A stretch of 64,000 nucleotides of DNA, from the NCBI GenBank assembly GCA_947175205.1, contig CAMWLS010000004.1, forward strand, positions 1 through 64,000. The letters run 5' to 3'. The notes under the pieces are model-generated. The model was given only the letters and a program-made list of their open reading frames with translations, searched no databases and had not been told where the DNA came from. The position numbers were made by a program, and so were the translations under genes. Positions 2,884 through 62,993 of this stretch are shown here, piece by piece. The stretch is from an uncultured Porphyromonadaceae bacterium. Its GTDB lineage: Bacteria > Bacteroidota > Bacteroidia > Bacteroidales > Muribaculaceae. Within the stretch, counting starts at the first letter, position 1, and the number at the start of each line of letters is the position of its first letter.

Positions 2884-3342
2884 TTACTTTATAGGAAGGG
2901 TGATTGTACCATTTACAGTGAAAGACTCATAACCTCTCATATCTTCAAATTTTGCGTTGTTGAATGAGATGGTTACATTCTTACTGTCTTTTGCTGTTAC
3001 TTTTACAGAAGTAGTGGAGGTGGGCATCCCGATAATTGCGTTATAGGTACTCCATGTAAGGGTAAAGTTTTCATCGGTGAGTGCTGTACCTTTTTCTACA
3101 TCATCCCAACTGTAAATTGAAAAATTGAGTTGATTGTCGTTGTTGTAAACAAGACAACTGTATTCACTACTGCTTACATTTGGCATAGCATTGGTGAACA
3201 CATACTTTTTGCCATCAATGGTGAGTTCCATTTTACCAGTTGAGGGGGCATTTGGTTCGTCATCGTCATCGCCACAACTGGTAAGGGCAAATGACATTGT
3301 GGCAAAGAGAGCCACAAATAAAAAGTAAAAATACTTTTTCAT
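2884..3342 (-). CDS. Lipoprotein with acidic export-type signal (SCGDDDDE)
   Basis: Start placed at internal Met: MKKYFYFLFVALFATMSFALTSCGDDDDEPN. The 22 aa upstream in the ORF track are unlikely to be coding. Confidence 0.85.
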   Translation of the reverse strand: MKKYFYFLFVALFATMSFALTSCGDDDDEPNAPSTGKMELTIDGKKYVFTNAMPNVSSSEYSCLVYNNDNQLNFSIYSWDDVEKGTALTDENFTLTWSTYNAIIGMPTSTTSVKVTAKDSKNVTISFNNAKFEDMRGYESFTVNGTITLPIK

Positions 3343-3404
3343 TTTGTTTTCCTCTGCACCTATGGCTCTACGATGCGTTTTGATTGTGAATGATTGGAAG
3401 CCAC

Positions 3405-3641
3405 ACAAGAAAGTGGAGCCAGTATTTCCACCTATCTTACTGGAGTGGCCCTAGGATAGCCAAGAATACAGATAAGTGAAACGGACTCCACTTTGACCGT
3501 ATATCATAGGGTATGATAATACAAGCCAAAGAGAGCATCTTTCACCTTCATTCTGTATTACATGGTTGAAATTTCCTAGGTTTCTCCAGTAGAATGAAGC
3601 GAAAACGCTTTCTATGTATGTCTACTCACCCTAATGGGTTT
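3405..3641 (-). ncRNA. Candidate structured 5' leader RNA (copy 1)
   Basis: Minus-strand nested helices: ACTGGAG/CTCCAGT, CCTAGGA/TCCTAGG, AATACAGA/TCTGTATT, GTGAAA/TTTCAC, apical TATCATA/TATGATA. Upstream TAACTTTG -7-like box at 3649-3656; precedes the lipoprotein start at 3342. Confidence 0.6.
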
Positions 3642-61102: not shown

Positions 61103-61876
61103 TTACAGCATTTTATTATTGGTGGCCGCTACAATAGCCTCAGAAATATTACTGACATCAAGCTTTTCAAAAATCTGTTTGCGGTATTTCTTGATAGTTT
61201 CAGGGGAAAGACACATCTTGTCCGCAATCTCTGTCATGGTAAGCCCCTGAATGGACAGGGTGATAACAGTTTTCTCCCCATCAGTCAGCATGGGTACGGA
61301 GCTTTTCATCCAGCGGCGTGTAACCCTGTTATATTCATAATACTCATCTGAACCCACATGGTGGATTTCTATGTGACCGGCCTCTGTATGGTTAGAAGGA
61401 GATACCACGCATAGCGCAAGCCATATACGTCCGTCAGAAGTCAGTGCCAGCGGTGTTAGTTTGTGATGAATCAGAACCGGACGCTTATCCTTAAGTACAT
61501 GAAAATCATACTGAATATACCATTCCCTTTTATCTCCCGCAGGGATATTATTAAAGAACTCAAAGCCGGCACGGTTGAATTCCAGCAGCATTTTCTGTTC
61601 ATTCTCAGGGACATATTCCAGATAGAATCTGTAACTCAGTTCCAGCATTTTCTCCGGAGAAAGACCGCAAAGTATTAGCGAATTCCGGGATACATAAACA
61701 AACTTCTTTCTGAAATAATCTATGATATAAATACTCTGATAAGTAGAACGGGAGAAAGCATCTGCGGTAGATATATATTCCTCCACCGGGCCATAGTCCA
61801 GCTCCTCAGAAAGTTTTACTTCGTTCTCCGGAATGAAGAAGTCTTCAACCCTATTTTGTGTCATACCCTGTTTCAA
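61103..61876 (-). CDS. LuxR-type transcriptional regulator (PAS-like N-term, HTH C-term)
   Basis: 257 aa; C-term LTDGEKTVITLSIQGLTMTEIADKMCLSPETIKKYRKQIFEKLDVSNISEAI. Confidence 0.9.
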   Translation of the reverse strand: MKQGMTQNRVEDFFIPENEVKLSEELDYGPVEEYISTADAFSRSTYQSIYIIDYFRKKFVYVSRNSLILCGLSPEKMLELSYRFYLEYVPENEQKMLLEFNRAGFEFFNNIPAGDKREWYIQYDFHVLKDKRPVLIHHKLTPLALTSDGRIWLALCVVSPSNHTEAGHIEIHHVGSDEYYEYNRVTRRWMKSSVPMLTDGEKTVITLSIQGLTMTEIADKMCLSPETIKKYRKQIFEKLDVSNISEAIVAATNNKML

Positions 61877-61904
61877 AATAAAATACGTGAGCTAACTTTG
61901 CCAC

Positions 61905-62040
61905 GTCTTAACTTGAAGGGCGTAGGATCCCGATTGTACTCAGATGTGGTTGACAGCAGCCCACGCTATGCGGGTAAAGCCGCCATGCCATCTTTGAGTA
62001 CTGGTGAAAATTTCCTACGTTTTCAAGTTCAAGATTAGCA
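61905..62040 (-). ncRNA. Candidate structured 5' leader RNA (copy 2)
   Basis: Minus-strand helices AACTTGAA/TTCAAGTT, CGTAGGA/TCCTACG, GTACTCA/TGAGTAC, AGATG/CATCT. Shares the TAGGAAATTTyMACCA loop with copy 1; precedes the LuxR start at 61876. Confidence 0.6.
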
Positions 62041-62095
62041 TCACGCTTCATGATTTTCCAAAATGTCGCGGAACGGTATAGACCCTTTCCGCAAG

Positions 62096-62103
62096 CAAAG
62101 ATA
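62096..62103 (-). promoter_or_regulatory. -7 promoter box (TATCTTTG) upstream of LuxR leader
   Basis: caaagata on plus strand. Confidence 0.55.
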
Positions 62104-62363
62104 CAAAAATTTTTTGATATCCGCGTTCATTTCATTGATTTACCAACCCCACGCACATCACTTATGACTTATATGAGACTTACATTGCATATGAAGCATA
62201 CGTCATATGCGTCATATGCGTCATATAAGACGCATTTCCCCGCTTCTTCTCCATACCCCCCCCCTGGAGCTCTCTCCGCACGGTCATCCCCGCTTACCAT
62301 AACTCCCGCGCTTCCCATAACACCTATAAGTCACCTCATCTCTAATCAAAATTTGAGAATTGT

Positions 62364-62394
62364 TTTGTTTATCCGAAAAAAATGATTACCTTTG
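62364..62394 (+). promoter_or_regulatory. Promoter of rpsP (TTTG-N19-TACCTTTG)
   Basis: TTTG 62364-62367, TACCTTTG 62387-62394. Confidence 0.75.
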
Positions 62395-62453
62395 CCGCGC
62401 AAAACGGCACGAGATGCCGTACAGTCAATACAAAACCAAAAATTTATTTTAAA

Positions 62454-62993
62454 ATGGCAACTAAAATCAGATTACAGCGTCATGGTCGTAAGAACTATGC
62501 GTTTTATCCCATTGTAATCGCAGACAGCAGGGCACCACGAGATGGTAAATTCATTGAACGGATTGGTTCATACAACCCGAACACCAATCCTGCTACAATC
62601 ACACTTAACTTCGAGCGGGCTTTGTATTGGGTAAATGTTGGCGCACAGCCCACTGACACCGTACGTACCATTCTTTCTAATGAAGGTGTGCTTCTGATGA
62701 AGCACCTCCAGGGTGGTGTTCGCAAGGGTGCTTTTGATGAAGCTGAGGCTCAGCGCCGCTTTGATGCCTGGAAAGCTACTAAGGATGCTAAAGCAGAGAA
62801 ATTCAAGGTAGCTATGGCTGATAAGAAAGAAATTGCAGCCAAGGAACGTCTGGAAGCCGAACAGGCTAAGAATCAGGCCAAGGCTGAACTGGTGGCTAAG
62901 AAGAAAGCAGAAATTGCTGCCGCTAAAGCTGAAGCTGAAGCTGCCGCAGCCCCTGCTGAAGAAGAAGCCGCCGCTGAGGAAGCTGCTGAATAA
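62454..62993 (+). CDS. rpsP: 30S ribosomal protein S16 with long Ala/Lys/Glu C-terminal extension
   Basis: Start at [42 protein letters not shown]; the 24 upstream ORF codons are leader. Confidence 0.96.

Follow-up and report, generated by a model that had tools for sequence, protein, structure and literature searches.

The window analyzed here, the whole 64,000-nucleotide stretch at the start of contig CAMWLS010000004.1 from an uncultured Porphyromonadaceae bacterium, had been predicted to carry on its minus strand two copies of a structured RNA, each upstream of a gene. This raises the question of whether the two copies represent an RNA class and, if so, what such an RNA could do in front of its genes. 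The helices proposed for copy 2 and listed as P0, P1, and P2 in Table 1 were all present in the sequence, as was the apical hairpin (61960 to 61974). A fourth helix (61989 to 61993 with 61942 to 61946, minus strand) had been drawn with limits that were slightly off, because base 61942 is already used by P2. The 5' string GGAAATTTYMACCA common to both copies was not significant alone in the window (3 matches versus 2.1 expected) and became significant with its paired 3' partner and the homologs. When folding was compared with that of dinucleotide shuffles, z was -4.1 for copy 2 and -6.9 for copy 1, and none of 200 shuffles was as good in either case.

Table 1. Positions of the RNA copies, their parts, and the adjacent genes in the window
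Feature	Position	Strand	Basis or remark
Copy 2 RNA core	61883..62053	-	Covariance-model match, 138.1 bits; one of the four model seeds
Copy 2 -7 promoter box, Bacteroidetes type, TATCTTTG	62096..62103	-	Read in the sequence
Copy 2 5' hairpin A (GCGGAA / TTCCGC)	62068..62092	-	At the expected transcript start
Copy 2 P0, 62022-62029 with 61910-61917	61910..62029	-	Sequence and folding; covaries in homologs
Copy 2 P1, CGTAGGA 62013-62019 with TCCTACG 61921-61927	61921..62019	-	98.5% of cells paired in homologs
Copy 2 P2, GTACTCA 61995-62001 with TGAGTAC 61936-61942	61936..62001	-	Sequence and homolog alignment
Copy 2 H1 alternative helix, about 62028-62043 with 61983-61998	61983..62043	-	Covariation; predicted in the 5' half alone
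Copy 2 PB alternative hairpin, 62020-62026 with 62004-62010	62004..62026	-	Covariation and prediction; loop is the P1 5' strand
Copy 2 P3 apical hairpin, conserved ATAGCGTGGGCTG	61953..61983	-	Homolog alignment
Copy 2 3' bulge region, with GTTAGCT 61890-61896	61885..61906	-	In most homologs, place of the strand contacting the pre-AUG hairpin
LuxR-type (GerE) regulator	61103..61864	-	Likely start ATG 61864, 18 nt past the copy 2 RNA
Copy 1 RNA, long apical subtype	3411..3615	-	33.3 bits in the covariance-model search
Copy 1 contact, TGGCTC 3416-3421 with GAGCCA 3363-3368	3363..3421	-	Directly 5' of the ATG at 3342
152-aa lipoprotein-like gene downstream of copy 1	2884..3342	-	Start ATG 3342

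The original observation of two RNA copies is an understatement. A pattern search identified a third copy in the host's own genome, with arms that differ and still pair. A search of 198 genomes of the host's family added more true homologs as soon as a match to the 3' partner was demanded. The covariance search that the original prediction had proposed was run with a model built from four short-type copies, copy 2 of the window among them. Of 247 family genomes, 184 had matches, as did 27 of the 30 genera; copy numbers reached nine per genome, with six in the host's own genome. In a sample of the order, 47 of 198 genomes and 39 of 151 genera had matches, while in a sample of the phylum (248 genomes) the only matches outside the order were in three genomes, all of the same class. 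Plasmid matches were found in Bacteroides, Phocaeicola, Parabacteroides, and Prevotella. Scanning public genomes for a 16-mer pattern yielded little but chance matches; the single true homolog, L110, is from a Porphyromonadaceae metagenome bin. Strict patterns matched five viral contigs, and a phage origin is not indicated. In several fragmented assemblies among the order-level matches (G391 C5:387-549 and C6:389-553, G418, G262, and G292), the RNA is located near contig ends, which looks as if repeated copies of it broke the assembly.

Rfam 15 at its curated thresholds gave no match in the window. Around copy 2 nothing was found even at E values of up to 10, and at the RNA in homologous loci nothing exceeded chance level. 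No paper containing the consensus strings was found in the literature searched, although an earlier unnamed survey listing is not excluded, as the alignments of PMC8040213 and doi 10.1093/nar/gkx699 were not compared. The RNA thus appears to be a widespread, undescribed class of a dominant gut order, insofar as there is no Rfam family and no paper was found in this search. The proposal of a structured RNA class outside Rfam is borne out by this result together with strong covariation.

For the covariation analysis, 98 distinct homologs were aligned with MAFFT, blind to all proposed structures. Seven helices were supported (P0, P1, P2, PA, P3, H1, and PB): one P0 pair shows all four Watson-Crick types, three P1 pairs are swapped together in 12 sequences, both sides change at 7 of the 10 P2 pairs, and H1 and PB also covary. 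The P1 and P2 arm swaps between the two window copies, originally read as compensatory change, are real and are confirmed in these homologs. When the partners were slid, the paired fraction dropped from 91% to about 40 to 50%; shuffle tests on this alignment are inflated by relatedness. Covariation support was weak for P6, a local terminal hairpin and possible terminator, and many copies have a U-rich stretch past the last helix. Summed over the helices, there were 742 G-U pairs versus 138 A-C mismatches, and selection therefore acts on the RNA of the transcribed gene strand. Two outcomes that would have refuted the original prediction, exact dispersed repeats without covariation and inverted repeats of a mobile element, did not materialize.

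The position of the RNA is as constrained as might be expected of the gene leader that had been predicted. The TAnnTTTG box noted upstream of copy 2 was found (Table 1), and 112 of the 127 homologous loci have such a box at 40 to 80 nt from the RNA on its upstream side, with 90 hits in the 40-to-49 bin alone, compared with 13 hits in all far-upstream control windows together. A co-directional ATG follows the RNA in 127 of 133 loci at a median distance of 52 nt (interquartile range, 47 to 57 nt). The near-fixed spacing to both the promoter box and the ATG indicates that the element is the whole leader, from the probable transcript start to the start codon, and spans some 265 nt between promoter and AUG. 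It is consequently larger than originally drawn: its first part is a hairpin immediately behind the promoter box, and a further hairpin shortly 5' of the ATG closes it in most homologs. In 92% of the loci, the 50 nt preceding the RNA are better folded than shuffled sequence. Two criteria for a riboswitch, a location in the 5' leader of the gene and a conserved structure backed by covariation, are fulfilled. An upstream short reading frame starting at the AUG in GUUAUGC was considered and rejected, as its length and frame vary across the homologs (judged by eye) and one subtype has GUUUUGC. Upstream of the copy 2 promoter, at 62165 to 62235, the window contains short tandem repeats that are imperfect (GCATATGAC-like) as well as nine consecutive G residues, followed by a gene divergent from the LuxR gene that encodes a ribosomal protein S16 of 203 aa with a long Ala/Glu/Lys-rich C-terminal extension (62382 to 62993).

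Two further features, the alternative helices and a loop-loop contact, had been missed. The 3' bulge of the RNA is complementary to the loop of the hairpin directly before the AUG, with a score of 16.48 for the real pairs versus 12.92 (standard deviation, 0.23) for permuted pairs and about 11 in coding-region windows. The stem of this hairpin, formed by the bases flanking the loop, scored 11.2 versus 7.6 and is more common than at control positions. The contacting strands are exchanged as pairs among homologs, as in CAGUUCC:GGAACUG, CAGCCC:GGGCUG, UGUCCC:GGGACA, and GUUGGCU:AGCCAAC. Copy 1 of the window retains the contact, whereas for the bulge strand of copy 2 no good partner hairpin was found; the kissing hairpin is missing from both LuxR-linked copies and from some other copies.

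The LuxR-type regulator that had been given as the context of copy 2 proved to be incidental. Homologs of it occur in 29 of 119 genomes of the family, and among 30 LuxR loci retrieved the RNA is present at one alone, that of the window itself, so that a specific link was rejected; a second LuxR locus with the RNA (L179) was found separately. In both LuxR-linked copies the pre-AUG hairpin is absent and the gene starts 11 to 18 nt past the RNA, so that the window's LuxR copy is atypical for the class. The 127 downstream proteins fall into 80 unrelated clusters, and most were flagged as exported proteins or lipoproteins by a simple hydrophobicity rule. Others are LuxR and cyclic-nucleotide-binding (Crp-like) regulators, YccF, TrkA, a RecD-like ATPase, an aminoglycoside adenylyltransferase-like protein, DarT, and the beta-lactamase MUN-1. 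The largest downstream family, found at 14 loci, consists of small exported proteins that share a G-I-P-(I/V)-(E/D)-G motif and are not clearly annotated (loci named for it, L182 to L187, L200 to L204, L213, L256, L264, and L282). Searches of Pfam, NCBIfam, PADLOC, and PHROGs revealed no common function of the downstream proteins, and no pathway shared by these genes that would point to a ligand was found.

Unrelated genes are preceded by cores that are 97 to 100% identical, mostly with unrelated DNA upstream. Similarity among these near-identical copies starts near the transcript start and fades past the last helix, so that the leader acts like an exchangeable module. Some copies sit on mobilizable elements, and a MobV-type gene lies directly upstream at four loci with differing cargo (L186, L201, L203, and Bacteroides uniformis pBUN1). 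On pBUN1, the leader precedes blaMUN-1 directly downstream of mobV (L231:2501-3630). A gene for a tyrosine-recombinase-like protein of 195 aa that lacks an N-terminal domain is located directly upstream of the long-subtype RNA at three loci (L121:783-1370, L110:6182-6769, and L163:1651-2238), and in L110 this gene sits within an integrated element adjoining guaA. Copy 1 of the window also adjoins guaA but lacks the recombinase-like gene.

We favor the reading, at a probability of roughly 55%, that the RNA is a bistable cis-acting 5' leader class of Bacteroidales that controls translation; its regulated refolding, its translational output, and control by a ligand or protein are all inferred. 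H1 and PB cannot all form together with P0 and P2, because their bases overlap. Both folds covary, and folding is predicted, in the absence of expression data, to be sequential. For the 5' half by itself, the predicted fold is H1 plus PB (PB in 90% and H1 in 62% of the sequences), whereas the full-length RNA is predicted to form a rod (P0-P1-P2) in all sequences, with a mean difference of 17 kcal/mol in favor of the rod. In the mechanism we infer, the first half would fold locally as H1 plus PB. Once the 3' half is transcribed, its UCCUACG would pair with the PB loop CGUAGGA, a natural toehold because it is the P1 5' strand, and the RNA would refold to the rod. A ligand or protein may set the balance between the folds, which would make or break the contact beside the AUG and so set translation of the accessory gene. 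The signal could be one common to many genes, e.g., a second messenger, which would explain the presence of the same leader on dozens of unrelated genes. Against a switch, the rod is by prediction about 17 kcal/mol more stable, and H1 could be a mere folding intermediate; the switch model rests on computation without expression, probing, or ligand data. The copies without a kissing hairpin, and the lack of a pathway common to the downstream genes that would suggest a ligand, also count against it. A tentative possibility is a riboswitch-like class that senses a Bacteroidales-wide signal (a second messenger or stress metabolite) and spreads as a leader cassette, bringing new cargo, including resistance and defense genes, under one control.

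Somewhat more doubtful is a leader that acts on translation or elongation by binding a protein (an RNA-binding protein or an antitermination factor) instead of a small ligand. Its several copies before unrelated genes, its large conserved structure, in which the apical loop is also conserved, and the U-rich stretch past the last helix in many copies would suit such a role, but no partner gene travels with the RNA, and the near-fixed distance to the AUG favors translation over elongation. The conservation of the whole leader from transcript start to AUG, and its use by unrelated cargo genes of mobilizable elements, could also reflect a constitutive leader that stabilizes mRNA or recruits ribosomes, without switching, in bacteria in which Shine-Dalgarno pairing matters little. 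We regard this as unlikely, given that two mutually exclusive folds covary and a passive leader would have no use for both. A separate small RNA that acts in trans and has its terminator before a gene only by chance, for which the own promoter, the 5' hairpin, and the U-rich 3' flank of many copies could be cited, is very improbable in view of the co-directional start codon (127 of 133 loci; transcript ends are inferred) and the covarying contact across the gap to the pre-AUG hairpin. Equally improbable is that the element merely resembles an RNA and is a site of DNA recombination or a mobile repeat (attC-like or MITE): near-identical cores precede unrelated genes, with a tyrosine recombinase-like gene beside loci of the copies 1-3 type and MobV beside others, but the one-strand G-U bias, the near-fixed spacing to promoter and ATG, the pre-AUG contact, and the lack of sharp insertion ends all oppose it.

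With a translation-controlling leader class of this kind, accessory and mobile-element genes would form a regulon held together by a common leader and not by a common protein family. Bacteroidales rely little on Shine-Dalgarno pairing, and the class opens the testable question of how leader structure controls translation under these circumstances. A second question is how Bacteroidales bring foreign genes under control.

Some systems already described resemble the RNA in part. The Bacteroides thetaiotaomicron transcriptome of 2020 has unusually long 5' untranslated regions on 13.5% of mRNAs, only about 2% of which contain a putative riboswitch (PMC7366714), and this leaves room for such a class. 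A candidate-RNA survey from 2010 gives other Bacteroidetes motifs (PMC2864571). A microbiome survey from 2021 lists thousands of RNA candidates, which are likewise computational, with some in Bacteroidetes and near gene starts; those described in its text are 38 to 139 nt long, unlike the present RNA, and overlap is not excluded (PMC8040213). Bacteroidales-1 (RF01693), of about 180 nt, is also a conserved structured RNA of the same genomes. However, it is single copy, one per genome and at places other than the loci of the present multicopy RNA, which its model does not match. Integron attC sites are likewise palindromic folded elements with variable arms beside varying cargo genes, but the present RNA lies 5' of the gene in one orientation with its own promoter, shows G-U pairs on the RNA strand, and is without an integrase at most loci, and an attC identity was rejected on these grounds. 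Cyclic di-GMP (GEMM) riboswitches are also present more than once per genome, on mobile elements as well, and precede diverse genes, of which many encode exported proteins and some encode regulators. The present RNA shares these properties in broad outline. It differs from GEMM in having no sequence or structure match (Rfam negative), in being much larger, and in contacting a hairpin before the AUG.
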